This document shows positions 2,650 to 27,046 of a DNA stretch of 64,000 nucleotides, one piece after another; within the stretch, counting starts at the first letter, position 1, and the number at the start of each line of letters is the position of its first letter. The DNA lies in NCBI GenBank assembly GCA_010094025.1, contig ML991775.1:124001-188000 (forward strand), in the 5' to 3' direction. This stretch comes from Viridothelium virens (Eukaryota; Ascomycota; Dothideomycetes; Trypetheliales; Trypetheliaceae). The notes below the pieces were generated by a model that ran no database searches, was not told the DNA's origin, and saw only the letters and a program-made list of their open reading frames with translations. The translations under genes were made by a program, and so were the position numbers.

Positions 2650-3929
2650 TGGAGATGGGGAGAGCTGGAGGAGAGCGTGGAGGAAGATGGTGGGGAGTAC
2701 GGTTGCGACTGTATGAACGATTGGCTGCGAAGGTCACAGTACGCACGGAGTTGCGAGTTCCTAATGCGGAGTTCACGCGTTTCGAGACCTTGTCATGACT
2801 GTCTTTGGTGTCCGTCAGATCCAGGCGTCAGAATCAACAGAGTGGGATGCTCTTTGACTTGTCATGCTATTTTGAGAGTAAGAAAGAAGACCATTTAAGC
2901 CAAAAATGCAGGTAATGGAAATGCAAGAAGGTCCAAATCAATCCACACCATGGCCAATTCTCGAAGGCCAGAATCGTATTTAATCGAAGATACTTTCTAT
3001 ACCCGGAGTCATTCTGAATCATCCATTGGATGAAATGGTAGTTATTATTAAGTATGGTGATACGATCGAGAGCTGTAGCTTATGCTTGGCACTACCGTCA
3101 TCATTGGTCTGGACGCATCGTACTTACGCCCCTTCTTGGCAATGAGAAGATTTGAGCAGATCTGAGGATAGATTCTTTAATTAGAACAACGGAGTTTGAG
3201 AAGATTTGAGAAGGCTGGAAAAGAGGTATATAATGCACCATCAGCAAAGCCCTTCGGTCCATTAAGACCACGGACTTCCTATCCTGACAGCTGGATCCTG
3301 GATAGCATTGCTAGACAGCCTCGCAATTTCTTCAGATCCTTCTATTTTTCAAGTTCGCATGTCAATCAACTTCGCGTCCTTCAGATATCTATTCGCCCCC
3401 TCTGTTGCTTCGAGCTCCTTGTTCGTCCTCTCTGTTCCCGCCATTTGGCCGGATTTCAGGATTTCAAATTCGACCCAAAAACCGATGGCTCAACAACTCA
3501 TCAGAAAATTACAGAGAAAAGGACCTCTTGACCTGATAAAATCACGAGCACCTTAGTGCACTTAAGGCGACGAGCACAAGATTTCAAGCTTCACATAAAA
3601 ATAGCACAAGGTAAGGATACTCTGTTCAAGATTGTAAATCCACCAAGCAGATATGTTCGGCTAATACCGTGCATTAATTGTATAGTAGAAAATATGTTCT
3701 AGAAATTAACACTAGTTCCCAGACGAGTTTGGCGCCGAAGGAAAAAAAACCCGATCAACTCCCACCAATGTATCAACCTTTTCTACGAAAGATGAGTGAA
3801 CAAGCAATCCCAACACCGACCAAGGTTAAACTGGGGCCGACGTAATGACGATCGTCTATCTTGAGGCACAAAGGAAATACAGACAGTCCGTAAGGATTAG
3901 GAAAGCTCTTTCGTCGTGAGGCATGTCAT
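2650..3929. other. Intergenic, with one unassigned small open frame
   Basis: This lies between VPS45 (+) and laccase (-), whose 3' ends face each other. It is AT-richer than its flanks. A TATA-like GTATATAATG sits near 3224-3234, and about 80 nt downstream is an open frame (3308-3556, +, 82 codons) without a recognisable domain. It could be a small gene or chance; I do not call it. Confidence 0.4.
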
Positions 3930-5860
3930 TTACAATCCAGAGTCGATCTGGTCAGGGATGTGGCTACCAGTGAAGGTGGACCAGTCACGGCAAGTTTGAG
4001 CCATGACGCTGGGGATGTTGGTCTCGTTGATGTCGGCTGGCCTCTCAATAATGTTGATGTAGAGACCAGCAGAGATGTGCCAGGCAATGTGGCAATGCTG
4101 AAAAGAATGTTAGTTTCAGTTGCTGGATTGAGACGGGTAACATTAGGACTTACGAATGGCCAAACACCAGGGTTGTCAAGGTCGAACTGGACCACAATGT
4201 ACGCCGGCGTGCCATCAATCTGGGCTGGTGGCAAGAGTTGCGTGTCACGTCGTTGAGGGTTGTTTCCGTTGGTGACCTGTCCATTCCAGGTGCCGTAGCC
4301 AGTAGCGAGGACGTAGAAGTTGTGGCCGTGCATGTGCATTGGGTGAGAAGTGAAGGGGAAGGTGTTGTAGACGACGAAACGAACGCTCTTGTTTTCACCG
4401 AAGTTGTAGACATTGCGCTCGGGTGCGAAAGTGAGATTGCCGAGCTTAGCCTCAAGCAGGACCGGGTCGTTGTAGTCATCACGGAAAGTCGAGTTGTTGA
4501 CGTACCAAAGAGTGACGGAGCTACCGTTGATTTGGGCGCTGATGGTGAGCTCGGTGGTGTTCGTTGGGTCCTGAGCTGCGATTGGGTACAGGGGAACAGT
4601 CGAGGTAAGAGCGTCGTTCTGGCAGAAGGTTGGGACAGTGACGGAAGACGATGTGGTCGGCACAGCGGTTTTGTTCGCAGAGGGATAGTAGATTGCGGCA
4701 ACAGCCTCGTTCACACCTTGATTGTCACCGCAACTTGGGTCCCGGCCGATGATTGAGCGCATCCAGTAAGCACCGTTCGCCTGACCAGTGGCCTTGACGA
4801 GAATGTCGGTACGCTGGCCAACACCAAGAGTGATGACTTGTGGAGAATATGGCGTGACGGGAACGAAGTCGTTAGCGATGACAGTCATGGTGTGGCCATC
4901 AATCGTGAATTGCTGGGTGCCCTGGGTACCGGCGTTGATAAGTCGCAGGCGGTGAGTCTTGCCGGTCTGGAAGAAGAACTTGGAGATACCGGCGTTGGGA
5001 GTGCAGGGACCAGTGGTGAGCGAGCAGTTGTAGTTCATCTTGCCGTTGATGAGGTTGTTGTCTGAGAAGGGAGGAACAGTCTCGTTGACATTCTTAGCCA
5101 TGAGCTCCTCGACAAGCGAATAGTACTCTCCGTGGTACCAATCAGTCAGGAGGACTGGGCCCAAGTCGACATCATAGCCCACGTCGTTGGGGCCGTGAAC
5201 GATGATAGGCCCGAATGTACCAGCAGAGTACTGGGCAGAGTAATGGCTGTGGTACCAAGATGAGCCGTAGAGAGTAGCCTGGAACTTGTAGGTGAACGAT
5301 TTTCCGGGAGCGATGGGGCATTGGTTAACACCGGGAACACCATCTTCGTAGGGTGTTCCTTGCTGGAGGAAACCGTGCCAGTGGAGTGAAGTTCCCTCGG
5401 TAACCAAGTTGTTTGTTACCGTGACTTGAATCTCGTCTCCCCAGTTGGCCTCAATGGCGGGGCCTGGGAACTGTCCGTTGACAACCAACATAGGCTTTGC
5501 CACTCCGTCTGGGGATAGGGTCACATTGCTGATGGCGAAATTGTAGGTTCTCGTGACACCAGTGTTTGGGGGATTAGTGTAGGGGTTGGTGTTATTGACG
5601 GTCTTGGTTCCCCATGGAAAGCCTTGAGGCAATGGAGTGTCAGAGGTATTGAGAAATTGCTGGTATACTGGCGCAAGTTCAGTTCCTAGACTGCTAGCGC
5701 CGCTTTGAACTTGTTGAGAGACCGAGTTTAAGAGATAATTGACGTTGAGCAACTGCGCTGGCATGGTATACCCAGTGCTAGCAGACACTGGGACGGTGTT
5801 CATCAGAGAAGAGATTGAAAGGAGGGACATAATGCCCGAGAGACTGTTTGGGAAACCCAT
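3930..5860 (-). CDS. Ascomycete laccase (multicopper oxidase)
   Basis: Secreted blue copper oxidase that oxidises phenols and reduces O2 to water. Two exons on the minus strand (5860-4154 and 4097-3930) with one GT-AG intron (4098-4153, donor GTAAGT) give 624 residues. All four laccase signatures are present: L1 HWHGFLQQGTPYEDG, L2 GSSWYHSHYSAQYS, L3 HPMHMHGHNFYVL, and L4 HCHIAWHISAGL, the last restored by the splice. The residue at the T1 axial position appears to be Leu. The chain ends exactly in DSGL, the C-terminal plug typical of ascomycete laccases. The first about 28 residues look like a signal peptide, followed by an unusually long (about 60 residues) N-terminal stretch before the first cupredoxin domain. 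There are many N-glycosylation sequons. The physiological substrate (melanin, lignin or other phenolics) cannot be told from sequence. Confidence 0.95.
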
Positions 5861-12723: not shown

Positions 12724-15700
12724 TTACGAGACGAACCATAGCTTGACCACTCCCGCAACACGACCCCGGCAGACAGGGCAGTCATCCAGATTCTGAGCAC
12801 AATCCATGCACGCCGCAACATGGCCACAATGGAGAAACGCCGTGTCCGCATCACTCTCCCAGCAAATCTTACATCTCTTTCCGCTGTCATCCTCTGCCTG
12901 TTTCCATACAGTGACACCCTGCCCGTGCCGCTTACCATTCTTCCATCCCCCAGTGTATTCGTTTCCAGTCGCATGCTCTACCAAGGTGCCCTTGCCACTC
13001 AGCAGCCCAGACTCGAAGCTCCCTTCATACACATCGCCATTAGCGAAGATGAGGCGTCCATGACCATGACGTTTGCCAAGAGCAAAGTCGCCACGGTAGG
13101 CCTCATTATTGCCCAGTGAAATATGTTCCCCCAGGCCATGGTATTGGCCTTTCAAAACGCTTCCTCTGAAGTAAGAAGACGAAAAGTACGACCTTGTGAG
13201 ATGACAAGCAGAAAGGTAGGGGAAGTTCCGTACGTTCGTTTCAGCCCGTATAAAGTCTGCCGGATCGACCGACCGACCGTCAGCCAAATATTTCTCGGGG
13301 TCCGTCACTCGCTCGTGGGCGATGATGATTGCACCGTCGCGGATAAGTTCGTGGGCAAACGTTCTGTAAGAAAGGAGTTTGCGACAGCCACTATTCGTCT
13401 CTTCAAACAGATCGAGAGGCTTGTCCGTCTGGAGCAACTTGAATATGGTTTCAAGAGTATCCTCGTAGCTGATCGTATAGCTCCCAACATGCCGGAGGGT
13501 CTGAGTATTCACATCGAAGGACTTCAGGAAAATGTACACGTTTGTCTTGATCGTTTTTGATCGTAAATTTTCGTATAGTTGCAAAAGAGTTGAAAGGTCT
13601 AACTCCTGGGCAATTTTGGAAATTTTCTCCAATCGAAGAGCGCTTTTCCTGCCCCGAGGAGGTCCTTCTGGTTCAGCAGGAGGTGGGGGCGGAGGCACTG
13701 CGATCGGTGGAGCAGGCACATCTACCATTATTGCTTCTGGCGCTAGACCCGTGGTATTCCCCGAGTCGTTCGTGGTCCCTCCGGTGCTGTCTACTGCAGC
13801 AATTAATGTAGCCTCTAGATCAGAGGGAACTCCTGCTCCATCTACTTGAGAGGCTGCAGCGGGCTCTATAGTTACCGGGTCATTGGCGGCCGGCTGATTG
13901 GAAGATGCAGCGGGAACAGTTGCTTGATCGTCAACGTCGGACATCGGGCTATCTTCTCTTTCATGGGGATCGGTGCGATCTTCTGGCTCGATCTGCGACG
14001 AGCTACTCTGCCCGTTAACTTCCTGCGCCGTCTGTCCATGATCGGGCTGGCCGTCGGATTTAGTACTAGCCCCAGCTACCGTGGCAGCTTCAGCAACTCG
14101 ATCTTGTTTTTCTATTATTTCGAAAGGAATGATATGCAGCCAGATTCTCTTTTCGGGGCAAAGCTGACTGATCACTCCCAGGTCCAGTGCCAAATCGTTA
14201 CAATCAGGCCAACGAGACATTTGAGGCCAATCCACACACCCTTGCCGGGAATCGATGATGAACAAAGCGCACTGTCGATGATCGCGAACTTCAGGTAGTC
14301 TTTCTTTGAGATGTTCCTGGAGATCTTGGAGGGTGGCTGTTGCTGGAAGCGTGGCCTCGATGATTGGAAGGGGGTTGGTCCTCGCATCTTTGGAGCCGTC
14401 CTCAAACAAGTTAACTACTCCAGAGTCCTTGCTAGACTGAAACGCTTTGGATTCAATAATCTGCAAGTCGATTTCGTCAGGAGGGCTTATCTTGATGCGC
14501 TCCTTGAGGCATTTTACAGCGTCCGAAAAGTCGTCTAGTTCGAGAGACAGTATGGTCCAATCATCAGGGCTGTCTTCGTATCGTATGTTTCGCAACCATT
14601 GCGCTTGTAGCCATTGCGGGACCTTCCATTCTGGCTCTGGCGTATGCAACAGTTCTAGCATTTGCTCACATATGTAAATAGCAATGTAAGCTACGCCCTT
14701 ATTCGCATCGCGTGATGATTTGGACGCGTATCCTTCTTCGTGAGCAGCCTCTCTTTGAGTAATACAAGTGACCTTGCAGTCGGATGAACGATTGTTGTAT
14801 CGGTACCACTTTCCGCCAAGACCGAGAGGCCTCAACGTTGAGTAGTATGAGCCAGACTGAAGTTCTCCTCGATGACTAACATGACCATAAAGAATGTAAG
14901 ACACTCCATGTATCACGACTCGGTCATCCAAAGAGACTTTGTCGGTGAGTTTCTTCCATCGACGCGCTTCAGGGTCAAAGGCCTGTCTATCAAGCTCAAG
15001 ACAGAGCACTTGTGCAGTTGGAAAATTGTGGTTGCCCGAAGTCTCCACATTCTCGACAGCCTTGGCCAGTGACTTGAACCCCTTTATCTTTACCCGATGA
15101 TTAGGTATTCCACGAATTTGGTCTTTGGCTGGACCAAATATGTTACTCAGAGAGTTGCACCACGGGGTACCTTGCAGCTCCTCTTCGATTTTGGCCCTCA
15201 ACACCTCCCAGATTTCGATGATGTCCATCTTTCGGATGGGTTCGGCAAGTCCGTAAAATTCGAGTGTGTCAATCAGATCATCAAGCGCAATCTTTCCCGA
15301 GAGTGGGGACTTCGGTTGACGCATCTGAAATAATATAGACTGTAGTTGTTCCACAACATGCATGGACCGCCTTCGAGCGTCTATCGAAGGATCTGGGATT
15401 TGAACATTGTACAGTAGTTCACGAAATGATCGGAGAAGCATCCACGCAGATATGGCCGCCGCAATGTTACCATCTGTTGCGCTCGTCGGACTCTGCAGAC
15501 TATGGAGACCGGTCATGGCAAGACTATCCCAGGGATTGCTATCGCTAGGGTGTTCCCAGAGGCATCCGGTTGCATCATCGACAGTCCTGATGTATGCTGT
15601 GAACGCAAGTGTGTCATTCTTTAACAAAGCTTGCCGCTCAAAGGGCTCTCGATAGCAGATTCGATAGAAAGGGCCATGAAATCGAGTGGAACCCCAATCG

Positions 15701-16875
15701 GTATTTTTGGGGCAAAATCTATGCGTATAGGAGTGGAAGTGGTTCACTCGTGGCTCGTTTGGGTTGTAAAGGACAATCGAAAATTGAGTCGCAACACTTG
15801 GACGTTGTGCGGTCGCCTCCACCGAGGGTTCTTTGAGAGGCGGAAGAGGCGTTTGCTGGGTCTTCATGCCACTAGATGTGGATTGGTCTGGTAGAGTTTC
15901 CATTTGTGTGTCGCCATGTCCCGCATCCGTGATTGACTCCGATGGTTTTTCTGCATCTGTATCAAAACTGACGCACTCGATGTAGACACTGAGATATTCC
16001 GAATCATTTCCTCTAGGGTAGAATTTTATCTGCCAATCGTAGCCCCCAATGTTGACAATCGGAGAACGCATGAGTGCTTCGTGGTTGGGCTTTTCTTTCG
16101 TTCCGTTATAGTTTGTCACTGTCCAATGGATTCTACCACTTGTATTTGGCGTATATTCTGGGTCGTGAAGGTCAAAAAAGGTCTGATTTTCCCAATACTC
16201 ATGGTCTTCTGCACTGTGTTCCACCTTGTCCTCGATCTCTTTGAGCTCAGTCTCATTTGGAGATGAAGTGTCTTCTGGTAGCGGACGCCATCGCTCGTTA
16301 CTATGGTCGTAATCGCCATCGGACATCTCTTGATCTTCAGGAGGGGGTGGTGGAGGCGGTGAGCCTCGACTAGAATGCACTGGGGGAGCGGTCAACGTCG
16401 GATCCTCGTCCCTACTCGTAGAGATAGGAGGCTCAGTATCTCCTGAAGAATCAACACTGCTACCATTCGATGACACTCTGACAAGGTTCTCGTTGCGCGG
16501 ATGAGCGGTACCTGAGAGCTCAGCACCCGTTGTGTTCACAACCATGTGTGGATTCGCCTCAGATTGAGCCGGTCCGGCTTCAGGTTCAATGTCGATAGTA
16601 GACCCTCTGTCATGATTCTGCCCTTGAACCGGGGTGGGTAGAGTCATTGACACATCCATATCAACATCCTCTTCGGCCAAGCGGAGGGTCTCGGAGGACC
16701 CAGATGGCGGTGGAATGGGAAGCTCGCCAGGAATCTCACCTGATTCGTCTGAAGACGGCGGCGGAACGTTATTCGCGAGGTTGGAGGGAAAAGGAAGAGG
16801 GCGAGGTGAGGAGGAACGACGACCGAAGAGGAGCGGTGGTGGGTCCGGAGGCGTGGATCTGGTCGTAAGGCTCAT
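12724..16875 (-). CDS. MATH / inactive USP7-like / MORN / RING protein
   Basis: One long uninterrupted frame of 1383 residues. Residues 1-240 are disordered and Pro/Ser-rich. Residues about 246-430 form a MATH domain (IHWTVTNYNG, then GGYDWQIKFYPRGN) with a roughly 60-residue low-complexity insert. Residues about 450-720 align by eye with the USP7 catalytic fold: the segment ending EEELQGT matches the USP7 region ending ENKMKGT, and GKWYRYNN matches GKWCKFDD. However, the Cys-box shows no Cys, and the catalytic His of GGHY is Ser676 (SGSYY). AYIAIY matches the end of the USP fold. Residues about 1110-1190 (VYIFLKSFDVNTQTL) resemble the USP7 ICP0-binding ubiquitin-like domain. Three MORN repeats follow (about 1258-1324), then a C-terminal C3HC4 RING (CKIC...CGH...CPVC). 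Inference: an E3 ubiquitin ligase carrying a pseudo-deubiquitinase. No intron is needed, though one cannot be excluded. Confidence 0.85.
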   Translation of the reverse strand: MSLTTRSTPPDPPPLLFGRRSSSPRPLPFPSNLANNVPPPSSDESGEIPGELPIPPPSGSSETLRLAEEDVDMDVSMTLPTPVQGQNHDRGSTIDIEPEAGPAQSEANPHMVVNTTGAELSGTAHPRNENLVRVSSNGSSVDSSGDTEPPISTSRDEDPTLTAPPVHSSRGSPPPPPPPEDQEMSDGDYDHSNERWRPLPEDTSSPNETELKEIEDKVEHSAEDHEYWENQTFFDLHDPEYTPNTSGRIHWTVTNYNGTKEKPNHEALMRSPIVNIGGYDWQIKFYPRGNDSEYLSVYIECVSFDTDAEKPSESITDAGHGDTQMETLPDQSTSSGMKTQQTPLPPLKEPSVEATAQRPSVATQFSIVLYNPNEPRVNHFHSYTHRFCPKNTDWGSTRFHGPFYRICYREPFERQALLKNDTLAFTAYIRTVDDATGCLWEHPSDSNPWDSLAMTGLHSLQSPTSATDGNIAAAISAWMLLRSFRELLYNVQIPDPSIDARRRSMHVVEQLQSILFQMRQPKSPLSGKIALDDLIDTLEFYGLAEPIRKMDIIEIWEVLRAKIEEELQGTPWCNSLSNIFGPAKDQIRGIPNHRVKIKGFKSLAKAVENVETSGNHNFPTAQVLCLELDRQAFDPEARRWKKLTDKVSLDDRVVIHGVSYILYGHVSHRGELQSGSYYSTLRPLGLGGKWYRYNNRSSDCKVTCITQREAAHEEGYASKSSRDANKGVAYIAIYICEQMLELLHTPEPEWKVPQWLQAQWLRNIRYEDSPDDWTILSLELDDFSDAVKCLKERIKISPPDEIDLQIIESKAFQSSKDSGVVNLFEDGSKDARTNPLPIIEATLPATATLQDLQEHLKERLPEVRDHRQCALFIIDSRQGCVDWPQMSRWPDCNDLALDLGVISQLCPEKRIWLHIIPFEIIEKQDRVAEAATVAGASTKSDGQPDHGQTAQEVNGQSSSSQIEPEDRTDPHEREDSPMSDVDDQATVPAASSNQPAANDPVTIEPAAASQVDGAGVPSDLEATLIAAVDSTGGTTNDSGNTTGLAPEAIMVDVPAPPIAVPPPPPPAEPEGPPRGRKSALRLEKISKIAQELDLSTLLQLYENLRSKTIKTNVYIFLKSFDVNTQTLRHVGSYTISYEDTLETIFKLLQTDKPLDLFEETNSGCRKLLSYRTFAHELIRDGAIIIAHERVTDPEKYLADGRSVDPADFIRAETNVRNFPYLSACHLTRSYFSSSYFRGSVLKGQYHGLGEHISLGNNEAYRGDFALGKRHGHGRLIFANGDVYEGSFESGLLSGKGTLVEHATGNEYTGGWKNGKRHGQGVTVWKQAEDDSGKRCKICWESDADTAFLHCGHVAACMDCAQNLDDCPVCRGRVAGVVKLWFVS

Positions 16876-17645: not shown

Positions 17646-18824
17646 TCATCCCACGCGGGCAAATGTCGCTGCAACAATGAGCGGGAACGCTATCGTGGCT
17701 TCCGCATATACCTAGGCCATCCTAGATTAGCATCATTTCCTCCACCGCTCTGAAGCCAGCTCCGACTCACCTTGACGCTATCACCATCTGCTTTGATTTT
17801 TCCCCAACTGACAGCTTCATCTGGCCGTGCTCCTGCATCGCTTCCGTCAAATTCCTGTGCAGTATTAATGTATACTGCACTCTCCGCCCCGTTGCGCATG
17901 AGACAGGCGTTGGCGATATGATGCTTTACAAGTCCACCCCCAAGAATGATCATGCCCGCTTGTCTTGCCTTGACTGATATCGAGTTAATCTTCCGTATGT
18001 CTTCCACGATGTCGATGCGAAGCTGCTGGGGCGATGCTTTGTATGTGTGAAAATAGAGCATATCTCCAAGACTGCCGTCGGTAAGAGCCGGACAAAATAC
18101 AGGGATATCATTCTTCCAAGCCCAGTAGTAGATGGATCGTTCGTCATCAATTTCCTCACCCAAGCGCCGAACGACTTTACTTGGGGTCCAGTGAAGAGGC
18201 TCCGCTGCGTCTCTGCTGGCTTCTTGCTCTTCCAGCATTCGGTCAAAGATCGGCACCACCCAGTCTTCGAAGGCGCAATAGTTACTGTTTGGCACGAAAA
18301 GATTTCCAATTCGATTTCGACCCTTTTCTCGCATCTCTGCGCCTTTATCAGTGAAAGATCCGAGATAAGTTGGGCCAAGGCACTTGATGAAATCCTCCTC
18401 AACGCCACCAGCTGTTGTTACTATGGCCGAAACATGCTTGTGTTGAACAAGATAACGGACAGTCTCGCGTAGGCCGGAGGAGACAAGATTTGACGTATAT
18501 CCCAGGAAAATAGTAGTCTTTTCTCCAGTCTCCGAATCCCTCCAAGACCTCTGCACAGGGGTTTAGAGGCATAATTTCCAAATTTTGCAAGTGCTAGATT
18601 CGTACCATGTCATTAATAATGCGGATGGCTTCACCAATTGATGTCGCCTGGAAGCCCATCCCTCCCATTCCCTCAACCAACTCCTGAACGGTGATGTCGC
18701 GGCTTTTGAATTGATCAAACTCAATACCCTGTACCTTCCTTGCCCCTTGTTCGACGGGCTCAGAAGCTTTCAGTACGGCGCTCGTGGCCTCGGAAGGAAC
18801 TACAGATTCACCATTCGTTGCCAT
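17646..18824 (-). CDS. Deoxyhypusine synthase
   Basis: Transfers the aminobutyl group of spermidine to a lysine of eIF5A, the first step of hypusine formation; NAD-dependent, cytosolic, essential. Three exons (18824-18606, 18550-17771, 17711-17646), introns 55 and 59 nt, give 354 residues, normal for the family. Conserved segments are [50 protein letters not shown] and [16 protein letters not shown]. The active-site lysine lies in VSWGKI (about Lys324). The last exon restores the usual C-terminal stretch [14 protein letters not shown] and ends in RVG. Both splice joins are phase 0 and keep the family sequence continuous. DYS1 is the yeast counterpart. Confidence 0.95.
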
Positions 18825-20778: not shown

Positions 20779-23700
20779 ATGTCTTCGCGCTATCCCAACA
20801 TTCACGACTCGCGATACCCGCCTCGAGACCGATCGCGCTCACCACCACGGTACTCTGATCGCCGTGGCTCCACTGTTTATCAATCTGCCTTCTCAGGTGC
20901 CGATGTTCCGCGTGGACCTAAAGCTCTGGTTGACCCCTCCAGACCTCCAGGACCTGGCACGCCCTCAACTGTACCCGCCGGTCCGCGAGGGCGAGGTTTT
21001 GGGGGACGGCCAGATTATCGCGACTCCCGGGATTTGCCACCATCAAGTGAAAGAGATCGCTCATGGCGAGACCGAGAATATGACAGGAGAGACCGCAGGC
21101 CATCACCTCGTGGACGATCCCCAACCCGGGATTTTCGCGAAAACAGGGAGTATCCACGTGATCTCGACACTGCTCGGGCCAGGAGAGGATCTCGAGATGG
21201 ACCTCCTTCGGCAAGCTCAACGTATTCAGATCCACCATCCTTCAGTTCAGCGCCATTTGGAAGAGGCGGTTTTGGAAGAGGTCGAGGCCGAGGTGAATAT
21301 GATTACCGCGGGCGAGGAAGAGGACTGTATCCTGACGAGCGAGACGTGTTTCGACCCCGCAGTCGATCGCGAGGACCGGCTCGACGTGAAAAAGAGTTTG
21401 TGAGGGATGATCGGGATTTTGAACGGGCGGAGGACCGTCGTTATGAACGGTGGGAGGACGATCGGAGGCCGGAGCGGGATGACCGAGATCGCGACCGCGA
21501 CCGCGACCGTGATCGTGACTTTGACCGTCAACGTCGAGACTTACCTCCCACTCGCCTCGACCTTCGCCAAGGCTCTTCCTCTGCGGGCCCTTCGACGCCC
21601 CATCCTCTGTCTGCCTCCTCTTCGCATCCACCTCCTTTGGATCGGGCCGGAGGCACAAGTACTCCACGTGATGCAGCTACCAGTAGACGAGGTTCTGCCG
21701 GCATCTTTCCCTCGGCCCATAAGGAAATTCGTCGAGAAAGTGAAAGATCTGATTCTTTCACCAGCAGAGCTGAATCGTCTCGGGAAAAGTATGCGCAACG
21801 CCCAGAATCTCCCCCACCTCAAGCACCTCAAGTTCCAGCGTTTGGCTCCTTACCTCAATTCAAAACCTCAAGCTATAATGGACCTCCATCGAACGTGTGG
21901 CGAGCACCTGTGGAAAACAAGGCATCGGAACCGACCCAGCCGGCCCCAGTCCCTCCGCAGGCACCAAAAGACGCCCCGGTTGCCCCAAAGGCACAATTGA
22001 GTGCGGCTCCTCCTACAGGACCACGGTCATCGCGACCTTTTCCAGAGCGATCTTCCGTAGGGGACTTAACCGAATCCGTCTCGCAGAACTTGCAGGATAC
22101 GAAGCCCAAAGATGGCACATCCATCTCTCAACCTACAACACCTCAACCAACGCCATCGGCAAAATTGGCGGTAGCCAACCAGACAGTTGCGGCCCGACCA
22201 TCCCCGCATCAACCTGAGCCTACTGCGATAGCTCCGACTGGCCCCCGTGGCATTCCGGGTGGACCTGTGGCTGGGCCAAGGGTGGCAGCAGCACCACCAC
22301 CATACTCGTTCACCAAGTCTCCCGGACAAGCTCCAGTTCGTCCATCAACTCCTCCAAACTTTGCACCACTAGGTCCAAGGAGTGCACCTCAACCAAACAC
22401 TTCCCCAAAAGCTCTGGGCGTGAACGTTCCTACTGGTCCTCGAGGTAGTAGGGTAACCATGCCAACCAGGCCTGGACCTACTCCGGAGAGGAGGACCGCT
22501 GCAGCGCCGAGGGCAGGTTATGGAGCTGGTAGAGGAAGCAATCAATGGATAAGTCCGCGTGTTCAGCAGCATGTGTCCAACGTTGTGCCTGCGAAAAGAG
22601 ATAGCGCCGGAGAAGAAGTTGTAAAAGAGTCCAACAGCTCACGGGGCGGACCAAAGACAGAGCTTACTCCTACACTTCAAGAAACATCAACGAAGGCGCA
22701 CTCTGATGATCCCATCGATCACCAAGCAGGTGTGGTTACTCTAAAGACTGAGCAGGAAGAGCCTCAGCTCAAGTCCGTTTCCGAAAGCGACCTTATCCAG
22801 GAAGATGGAATAGTTCATATTGACGGAGGTGCTGAGTCCGCCGCTATCAAACAGTCTAGAAACGCTCCATCTCAAGTTGGCACCGGAGAAGCTCCGAGCG
22901 ATGATGATGATGGCTTGGATCTAGATCTAGATGAAGAGGATTTCATGCAAACCGAAGACGATTTTGCCAAAATAAGGCAACGTCTTGAAGCATCAAAGGT
23001 CGATCTTAGCGCACGCCACGTCCGATCTTCAACACCGTTGCGGCAAATTGCGTCACTGGCAAGAATTGCCAGTGTTGACACTGAGGCTGTGAAGTTCTTC
23101 GTACCGGAGCCTCCTAAGAGTCGTCTGGGTCTGGGCGAGCATCGATCTAGCGGACAGGCAAAGGCTCGAAAAGCTGCGCAGGCTAGTATGCTCACCCCGA
23201 AAGCCGAGGATAGCGAAGACACAGTCATGTCAGATGACATTACTTTGCACGAAGCGTCTCCAAATCGAATGCCCAGCCCCGATCCGAAGAGTCTCCCACA
23301 CCTCTTAGCAGCACCACCCACGCCACTCTCCGATCAAGCTCCTTTCCAGGAGAGCCTCGCGCTGCACGAAGAATTGAAAGACACCATTGCTGATTACTTT
23401 ATGGACCACACCCAGGAACTAGATACGGAATATGAAAAGATGCGTTCTATATATGCCACGCAGTACAAGCTATGGAAGTCGCATGTTCAGTCTTTGGATT
23501 ACGAGAAGGAGCTGGCCGAAAAAATAAGGCAAAAGTCCGCAGAACCTATACCGGCACCTGAACCTGCACTGCCACCGACGACGCCAATCACGGAAAGTCG
23601 GCGTGCACACAAATTCAACACGGACTATGATGTTGAGAGGGCTCTCAAGGAGTCCATGGATACTCATAGAGAGGAGCAAGAAAAGGCTAAACGGGAGGCT

Positions 23701-26700
23701 TCTCAAGCCAAAGCTGATTTCACCAAGGAAGCCTGCATTCCTCCTATGCTCGATACAATCGAGCTGAGCCAGCCTAAATTCAAGGATATCAATAATCTGA
23801 GGGACCCTGCAGACCTCACAGCAATTTATGGCTTCTTCCCACCAAAAGACAATTTCACCCAAGAGGAGCACGAGATATTGGTACAAAGTTATCATCTGTT
23901 TCCAAAGAAGTGGGGTCGCATTGCTGAAGAGTTAAAACCGCGTCGGTCTTACAAAGAATGCATCAATCACTACTATGCTACTAAATGGAATGGCGAATAC
24001 AAAGATAACCGCTCCAGAACCGGCAGAAGGGGTGGCCGTGTATCCAGAGGTAGAGCGGCAAAAGGACAACCACGTATGAAGTCGAGTGTTGTCACCTCTG
24101 AAATGGACACCAAACCAGATCTATACGAAGGTAACGAATTCCAGGCACCGGCCGTCAGCACAGAAAGTGGGCGTCCGCGTCGTGCTGCAGCACCAGTCAA
24201 CTTTGGAGCAGAGAAAGACAATGATGGCAAGCAAGGAACTCCAACTGCTACCCCTGGGAGAAAGGCTACGGCAGCCAACCGATACGATGGTACTTCGGAT
24301 CCTGCTCCACACAAGACCGTCAGAAGACCGAAAGGTGCTGGAAAAGAAAAGGTTTCAAGGAAGACAAAGGGCCAGACTGTCGCGCTTGCACCTGCCGGTT
24401 CGCCCCTGAAGACTGAAAAGGCCCTGGAGAGCAGAGCAAGCGATCAGACCGTGGAGGATATCCCACTCACAGCAAGGCTTGAAGATGCGAGCCTTTTGGC
24501 CAATCTGCAGACGGGGCAAAGTCAGCCAGGCCTTGATAAGCCGGCATCCTATCTTGAAATGCAACCCAAGCCAAGCATGCCGACACCTGCCCCTTCAGAT
24601 AGGCCGAGTACCGGAGGAGGTGAAAAGGCGAAATCTCAAAATGCGACACAGCAGAGGACGGGGCCATCCAGCTATTGGTCTGTCCCTGAAGTGCAGGATT
24701 TTCCAAAGAACGTTGCCCACTTTGGGACGGATTGGACGGCTATTGCCAACCACATGGGTACAAAGACGCAAACTATGGTAGGACGTCAGCTAGCTCACTT
24801 GTCACGATTGTACTAATAAAGACTTCCAGGTTAAAAATTATTATGTGCGTCTAATTGAGGGAAACAGACCGGACCTGCAACACATGGCAACTCTGGCCGA
24901 TCAACGGAGAGAGCGAGGTGAAGATCTGGGCCCTCCCCCAACTGCGACCCCTCTGACCAAACGTCGATACGACAATCCTCAACCTCCAGCGCCTCGCCCG
25001 CTTGCTCCAAATCTAGAAGTCGTCGAGGTTGAGGATCATTCCCCTCCGCTCAGGCCCCAACCGCAGCAAAGCCATCAGTCTCCACGCCAGCTTTCGCTAG
25101 ATTCGCGAGCACCTCCACCATTTACAGGTGCAGCTCAAGGTCAAACCGCTACAACGAGTCGGCCTTCATCGTCATCCACAGCGCTACAGAACCAGCCTGC
25201 GCCTAAGCGGCCTTCCCAACCGCATGGTCCTCCTGTAACGGGTTACTTTCCCGAAGCCCGCGCAGAAGGCCGCTCTTCAGTGGTGGGTACGAGTGCACCA
25301 CTCCAAAGCCACGTGGAGCCGCACGCGAAGCCTCAACAAGCGATAGCCGTCAATCGAGACGCAAAGGATGACCAGTTTCGACGTCAGCTGATTGCGCAAC
25401 AAGACCAGGCCATGGAACTCCAAGCTATAGAAGCTAAGCAGGCCATGGAAGCTCAGGCACATGTCCGGCTACAACAACAGGCTCGAGACCGTGGGCCATC
25501 AGCTTCTTCGGCGCAACAACAAGTCACATCACGGCCACCTGTCACGGAGGTACCGCAAATACGATCTGCTTCTATTGATCAACGCCCTGCAGCCGAGCCT
25601 CGGAGATCGCCACCCTCACAACCAAATCCACTCCCACCACGTCAATCACAGTCAAATATTCGCCATCTCATTGATCTAACTCCTCAAGTATCACACGCAC
25701 CATCTCCATTAGAGACGCCTGTAAGTCAGGCGCTACCAATGCCAGCTCTGAAAGAGGAGGCTCGCTCTCATTCCGTCCCAATGCCGCTATCTGGCCCGAA
25801 TCCCACTGCCGCACCATCGTCAGCACCTCGCCTGCCTCAGGAGCCTCGGAAGACTTCTAACATAGCATCGATCTTGAATCCCTTAAATGACGAGCCTGAG
25901 GAGCCCAAACCGCGTAAGAAACCAGCGGAACAAGTATCAGCTACTCCGACGCCAACCCAGGTTGCACCTTCACATGGATTTCCTCCCACCCAGGGTCCGT
26001 CATTCTCGCGGCGCGACTCTCATAGTGAGCCATCTATCTCGCAAGCGTCGATGCAACGTGATCAATTCGGCCGTCCAATGCCGCATCCCACGCAGGTGCC
26101 TCCTCGACTCCCACCTGACTTTGTCGCTCGAGAACAAGTTCGAGACAATGCCCCAAGACAAGAGTGGGGTCCAAGACTAGGCTACGCAGCGTACCCGCGA
26201 GCATCCTCTCCACTGCACGAGCGCATGCCAGAGAGTCGACAAGCATTTCCACACCGTGCTTCTATTCTTGGTCCGCTCAATGATCAATCTCGTCACAACC
26301 CTTCTCCTCCACCACATCAAGGCTTTTCTCACTCTCGCACGCCTTCGTATCAACAAACACAGATAGCGCAACCTCAGAGTCAGCAGTCACCAAACCCGCT
26401 CAATCAATCATCACAAATATTGCAGCCGAACCCGTATGCACAGCAAGGAGTGCCGCCTCCGGTCACCAGAGCACCTACTCAGACAATGCAGCCACCATCA
26501 CAACAACAGCCGCCTCTATCATTTCATTCAACGTCACATCTATCTCAAAATCCCCACCAACGTCACATGAGCCTACAGCACCACCGGGAGCACGAGGTTC
26601 TATCACGCCAACACGAAGAGTCCCGCGAACGCGAGCGTGAACAAGCGCAGACCCAGGCGCACAACGCCCATTCCCATGCTCAAAATCGCTACACCCCTAT

Positions 26701-27046
26701 CCAACATGCTGAGTCTCGATTCCCACCCCCTCCGCCTCGACAGACGACAACGACACCACTGCAACACCACAATCCTCACCAGCCTCCGCCACCTCCAGAA
26801 TTTCTGCAACAACACCCGCCTCAGCAGCACGATCCCCGCTACCCACCGCCAGGTTCGAGGGAGGAAGAGCGCATGCGGATGGAACATCAGCATCAACACC
26901 AACAGGCCAGGTGGAGGGAAGATGAGGAGGCGCGAAGGAGACAGAATTTCGGGAGACATACGGATACGCGGACCCCGCCGGGTCCAGGCGGCGGATATCC
27001 GGCAGGAGGAGGAGGTATCTTTGGACCGCCACCAAGAGGACGATGA
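20779..27046 (+). CDS. Snt1-like SANT-domain co-repressor subunit
   Basis: Large nuclear protein resembling yeast Snt1, the NCoR/SMRT-like scaffold of the Set3 histone deacetylase complex. Two exons (20779-24777, 24830-27046) encode 2071 residues; the 52-nt intron carries a TACTAAT branch site at about 24811 and cuts the second SANT domain (TKTQTMV-KNYYVRLIEG). Residues 1-250 are rich in RS/RD/ER, with a run of alternating D and R near 21480. The middle is Pro-rich and disordered. SANT1 (DNFTQEEHEILVQSYHLFPK, with KKWGRIAEEL following) lies at about residues 1015-1075, SANT2 (SYWSVPEVQDF, GTDWTAIANHMG) at about 1295-1350. After that come long Gln/Pro/His-rich stretches, with DEEARRRQNF near the end. 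The start MSSRYP with RDRSRSPPRY fits fungal relatives. Assignment to Set3C is by family resemblance. Confidence 0.87.

Follow-up and report, generated by a model that had tools for sequence, protein, structure and literature searches.

The window analyzed here is a stretch of 64,000 nucleotides from the fungus Viridothelium virens (assembly GCA_010094025.1, contig ML991775.1, positions 124,001 to 188,000), and the gene in question occupies its positions 12724–16875 on the minus strand, to which the coordinates of the gene's parts given below also belong. The gene is an uninterrupted single frame of 1383 codons with no internal stop; none of 300 first-order Markov sequences built from it had a stop-free run of more than 318 codons, the maximum reached. 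When the full 1383-residue protein was compared with Pfam, matches to all five domain types (MATH_2, UCH, USP7_ICP0_bdg, MORN, and zf-C3HC4_3) exceeded the curated cut-offs, and their order along the chain was a MATH domain, a degenerate USP (UCH) domain, the second ubiquitin-like domain (UBL2) of USP7, three MORN repeats, and a C3HC4 RING at the C-terminus. An earlier note, written from the sequence without database searches, had described an intact frame with this architecture, and that description held. The MATH domain, the USP domain, predicted to be dead, and UBL2 thus stand in USP7 order. The NCBIfam profiles gave no match to the protein, whose first 230 residues (16186–16875) are rich in Pro, Ser, and Glu and, judging by that composition, are probably disordered.

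We searched the genome (a 30.7 Mb assembly in 175 contigs) with profiles, scoring only the best candidates, exon by exon, so that "only" in what follows means only found. MATH_2 matched two places, a gene on contig C18 and the window gene, and USP7_ICP0_bdg matched the same two. The window gene was the weakest of the 20 UCH matches listed (1.4e-7) and the best of 16 zf-C3HC4_3 matches; the MORN profile, at an E limit of 0.001, matched the window gene only. In the C18 gene, which appears to have introns, a MATH frame is followed by UCH (3e-59), USP7_ICP0_bdg (7.6e-87), and USP7_C2 (5.3e-39), and the motifs GATCYLN, GHYYAF, and RFDDD are intact; by these sequence marks it is a canonical USP7/Ubp15-type enzyme.

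The USP domain of the window protein spans residues about 448–745 (14641–15534). The UCH profile matched residues 482–708 of the full protein at 3.1e-7 (30.7 bits relative to a cut-off of 23.9) and the fragment alone at 1.8e-8, and BLASTP against the C18 paralogue gave 7e-11 as a single comparison. With hhalign, for which the paralogue was divided into five parts with borders set by hand, residues 440–780 matched the UCH part at P 5e-7 and the other four parts at P 0.17–0.61. Alignment with the C18 enzyme paired 293 positions, 87 of them identical. The catalytic Cys-His-Asp set, intact in the paralogue, is missing from the window protein. As the earlier note had claimed, the region of the catalytic Cys has no Cys: none occurs throughout residues 439–572, whichever column is taken as its counterpart. 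Global alignments place Thr467 (15475–15477) at the catalytic position, an assignment that is tentative because the local alignments begin past the Cys column (the UCH matches past the Cys box at profile position 22–23, the hhalign match at residue 526). The catalytic His is replaced by Ser676 (14848–14850), a replacement that the same note had named and that recurred in the paralogue alignments, the Protein Data Bank (PDB) match, and a nine-row alignment, and the catalytic Asp by Asn694 (14794–14796) in the paralogue alignment and the PDB match; the latter was a phmmer match to 9fit (E 0.001), with Ser676 and Asn694 opposite the USP7 His and Asp. There were also nine gaps opposite the paralogue, the larger ones at paralogue residues 45–58, 153–164, 194–213, 245–253, and 329–343; we take paralogue residues 153–213 to include the fingers, which hold ubiquitin in USPs. 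Since nucleophile, base, and third residue are all lost and gaps are present as well, ubiquitin cleavage by this domain would be very unlikely, and its gripping of ubiquitin appears doubtful. AlphaFold run on residues 440–780 without relatives gave a mean predicted local distance difference test score (pLDDT) of 34.4, a value for single-sequence input.

The nine-row alignment consisted of the window USP and eight of the 19 other UCH matches in the genome. Partial matches (L008, L011, L018, L020, and L021) and those with internal stops (L009, L012, L016, and L017) were left out, and L013 and L019 were simply not chosen. The catalytic Cys was present in six of the eight other rows; L004 had a Ser on the outermost margin of its match, where an intron boundary may lie, and L014 had Asp. 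The catalytic His was present in all of them except L014. The latter (L014:1501–2466, G000:C3) is therefore a second USP-type domain in the genome without catalytic Cys and His; it has KANDYFN at the Cys box and resembles Sad1/USP39.

The MATH/TRAF-like domain comprises residues 249–440 (15556–16131), among which some 50 residues (about 310–360) are inserted. MATH_2 (PF22486) matched it in two stretches at E 3.6e-14, and in a single BLASTP comparison it was identical to the paralogue MATH domain at 47 of 171 columns (27%; E 6e-17). The families on which the earlier note had proposed that the architecture be checked were all above their cut-offs except PF00917 (0.012, 16.3 bits relative to 21.2), so that the MATH assignment is carried by its sibling model PF22486. 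PF00917 matched nothing in the genome, nor any control; PF22486 picked up both MATH places. Asp393-Trp394 (15694–15699) is the counterpart of USP7 D164-W165 in the window-paralogue and paralogue-USP7 alignments, and the Gly that follows is retained (DWG), the paralogue having a DWGF that aligns to USP7. According to PMC7419626, USP7 D164 and W165 contact P/A/ExxS substrate motifs. Retention of the Asp-Trp pair is consistent with a role of the MATH domain as substrate recruiter, its binding being predicted.

Between the USP domain and UBL2 lie two further segments. Residues 761–925 (14101–14595) are not low-complexity and gave a weak ubiquitin-like match below threshold, to PF13019 (Sde2 ubiquitin-like) over residues 781–929 (9.9e-5, 23.2 bits, cut-off 26.4). 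With hhalign the best match of this segment to the five paralogue parts fell in the UBL2 part, where it spanned 10 columns at P 0.0043, and in the control one of five shuffles reached P 0.0039 against the UBL1 part; a PDB sequence search with residues 781–929 returned only matches judged to be chance or repeat artefacts. The segment could be a diverged ubiquitin-like domain (UBL). It is followed by a linker rich in Pro, Ala, and Ser (residues 926–1080; 13636–14100) and then by the UBL2, or ICP0-binding-like, domain (residues 1096–1202; 13270–13590). USP7_ICP0_bdg matched the latter at E 3.1e-10, and hhalign matched residues 1085–1215 to the paralogue UBL2 part at P 1e-4 and to the other four parts at P 0.34–0.8. 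A PDB sequence search with residues 1096–1203 again gave only matches judged to be chance or repeat artefacts, and hence the UBL2 assignment rests on Pfam and hhalign. Among the five C-terminal UBLs of USP7, UBL2 was the only one matched in the window protein; neither UBL3 nor USP7_C2 (UBL4-5) gave a match, and the place of USP7_C2 is taken by the MORN repeats and RING. UBL4-5 is required for full USP7 activity (PMC10919355).

The three MORN repeats (residues about 1260–1325; 12901–13098) were matched by Pfam in three stretches at E 4.7e-14 (51.8 bits relative to a cut-off of 22.5); the genome search located residues 1260–1282 and 1307–1325, and the middle repeat was read from the sequence. 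The RING (12754–12879) was matched by zf-C3HC4_3 at E 7.3e-13 over residues 1333–1374. All eight zinc ligands are present (C1335, C1338, C1350, H1352, C1356, C1359, C1366, and C1369), and the nearest solved structures were those of cIAP1 (6hpr, 1e-12) and cIAP2 (3eb5, 2.8e-12), followed by MYLIP and XIAP. Counted along the structure-match alignment, cIAP1 R606, R614, and F616 align with R1370, K1378, and W1380, the last two lying in the C-terminal tail (12727–12753). According to PMC6349121, R606 serves as the linchpin of cIAP1, and the tail residues R614 and F616, contributed by the partner protomer, matter as well, the tail acting in trans within the dimer. The window protein thus has the sequence features of an IAP-type RING, namely eight ligands, a linchpin Arg, and an aromatic tail with W1380 for F616, and ligands, linchpin, and tail together predict an active and dimeric RING. 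A BIR domain was not among the 11 Pfam families listed for the protein at E up to 10. AlphaFold without relatives gave a mean pLDDT of 41.7 for residues 1089–1383, with 17 of the 295 residues, in or next to the MORN stretch, reaching 70.

Searches for relatives covered prokaryotes (GTDB genomes) and viruses (IMG/VR), collections that say nothing on fungi. For the whole protein, none of 20 pattern matches in GTDB was confirmed as a relative, and IMG/VR gave no pattern match. The MORN-RING piece (residues 1226–1383) yielded 10 bacterial loci from 40 pattern matches in GTDB and no confirmed relative from 69 in IMG/VR. The matched part lay inside the MORN stretch in eight of the 10 loci and reached into the RING-equivalent part in two (L045 and L050); in L050, the only one scanned, the sequence provided contained MORN in five stretches and no RING. 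These loci (L045–L054) are MORN-containing stretches from Rhodobacteraceae, Clostridia, and relatives. Annotations of a similar kind ("MATH and UCH domain protein") exist in Aspergillus-type and filamentous ascomycete genomes; the phrase itself was not found in the open-access PMC literature, and the protein family is probably known to databases yet unstudied. The earlier note had known of no functional study, and among the matches listed in the same literature we likewise found no paper on such a MATH-dead USP-MORN-RING protein. In the text of a review of fungal deubiquitinases (PMC9599802), MORN does not occur and RING occurs once, in cullin-RING.

Nearby on the window are a laccase-like three-domain multicopper oxidase reading frame (3926–5860, minus strand) and, upstream of the gene and like it on the minus strand, a deoxyhypusine synthase reading frame (17690–18556). 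On the plus strand, a 1345-residue frame with two Myb-like DNA-binding stretches (20779–24816) is adjoined by a 733-residue frame with no Pfam match at E 0.001 (24845–27046).

We propose, with about even confidence for and against, that this gene encodes a catalytically dead USP7/Ubp15 paralogue rebuilt as a RING ubiquitin ligase (E3). The MATH groove would bind P/A/ExxS-like peptides, perhaps in some clients of the genome's active USP7, and the USP/UBL part would serve as scaffold, not enzyme. The MORN repeats and RING may form a homodimer in which the C-terminal tail of either chain would support the E2~ubiquitin carried by the RING of the other, and a client held by the MATH domain would then be ubiquitinated, in opposition to USP7. 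A more specific history, to which we hold only tentatively, is that one copy of a duplicated USP7 retained the frame for recognizing clients while its chemistry was reversed, giving a dimeric RING writer that forms, within one fungal genome, an antagonistic pair of common descent with the eraser on shared MATH clients.

Several observations weigh against this proposal. The activity, dimerization, and binding of the window protein are predictions from its sequence. A PDB search with its MATH region listed three sequences, none a MATH protein, whereas the paralogue MATH domain found USP7 (5.6e-5), and the window MATH domain is thus the more diverged; as the Phe of the USP7 DWGF is replaced by Ser396 as well, the groove may have drifted. 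USP7 UBL2 binds clients through D758, E759, and D764 (PMC7419626); located in the alignment by their spacing, these positions are E1176, L1177, and A1182 in the window protein. With only E1176 acidic, UBL2 client binding has probably not been kept. PMC6349121 names Phe or Tyr for the RING tail, and Trp, as in W1380, is not among them. Finally, no orthologue was found in GTDB or IMG/VR.

An unlikely though substantial alternative is that the protein is a scaffold or decoy, the dead USP/MATH portion binding either clients of USP7 or chains of ubiquitin while the RING acts mainly on the protein itself or its partners, so that it would regulate the ubiquitin system and not be a dedicated client E3. 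The MATH and UBL2 domains that it has in common with the active paralogue suit that role too, and pseudo-deubiquitinases do serve as scaffolds or allosteric partners (PMC10919355). On the other hand, the RING retains all ligands, the linchpin, and the aromatic tail, and the blocks opposite paralogue residues 153–164 and 194–213, presumably in the finger region, are gone, making ubiquitin binding doubtful. The least probable of the alternatives is that the USP part has kept a cleaving activity, on ubiquitin or a ubiquitin-like protein, by way of non-canonical residues, which would make it a writer and eraser in one chain. Cys573, Cys625, Cys700, and Cys704 lie in the domain, and a later reassessment allows that USP39, once classed as a pseudo-deubiquitinase, may be active through residues that are not conserved (PMC10919355); all three catalytic residues are lost here, however, along with the deleted blocks and USP7_C2.

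The earlier note had read the protein as a substrate-recruiting E3 on a pseudo-deubiquitinase, perhaps tethered to membranes by its MORN repeats. The Pfam matches, active-site alignments, and RING matches support a pseudo-deubiquitinase and a RING in one chain, and recruitment by the MATH domain is consistent with the retained Asp-Trp pair; the tether is not supported. It is suggested by the repeat's name and its history, and we consider it improbable: only three repeats are present, and no evidence was obtained, in vivo or in vitro, that TbMORN1 binds membranes or vesicles, although it bound individual phospholipids (PMC7725318). As the same source treats these repeats as modules for protein-protein contact that can bring about dimerization, a dimer fits better than a tether. 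More improbable still is an artefact, with two genes or an intron-containing frame mistaken for one continuous gene, or else a gene in decay. Introns appear to occur in other genes of this assembly, the USP7 paralogue among them, a simple pattern search (40–160 bases) found within the frame three intron-like stretches whose lengths are multiples of three, and the collections searched contained no orthologue. Those stretches begin, however, at residues 736, 868, and 879, away from the UBL2-MORN-RING junctions; all the domains lie in a single frame, in which those derived from USP7 keep its order, and that frame far outruns the Markov control.

If the proposal of a dead USP7 paralogue rebuilt as an E3 is correct, the gene would represent a natural conversion of a deubiquitinase substrate-binding scaffold into a ubiquitin ligase, would pair two enzymes of opposite effect that recognize clients in common, and would reveal a role of the USP7 MATH-USP-UBL frame without catalysis. 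MATH domains bring clients to a ubiquitin-writing module, as proposed here, in the TRAFs, in TRIM37 (RING plus MATH), and in SPOP (a MATH adaptor of CUL3), but these have an N-terminal RING or a BTB domain and no USP or UBL2 remnant. A20/TNFAIP3 combines a deubiquitinase-type fold with ligase activity in one protein, but through an OTU domain and A20 zinc fingers, which are unrelated families. USP39/Sad1, PAN2/USP52, USP53, and USP54 are pseudo-USPs (PMC10919355 names USP39 and USP52), in which a USP fold lacks its canonical catalytic residues, as predicted for the window protein; no pseudo-USP is known to combine this with a RING in one chain. The RINGs of cIAP1, cIAP2, XIAP, and BIRC7 are, like that of the window protein, C3HC4 RINGs at the very C-terminus with a linchpin Arg and an aromatic tail; the window protein differs in having Trp for Phe in the tail, no BIR domain in its Pfam list, and other substrate-binding parts. 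Yeast Ubp15, USP7, and the C18 gene have the MATH-UCH-UBL2 order of the window protein, with each part similar in sequence; relative to USP7/Ubp15, the window protein lacks the catalytic residues, several blocks, and a UBL3/USP7_C2 match, and has gained the MORN repeats and the RING.

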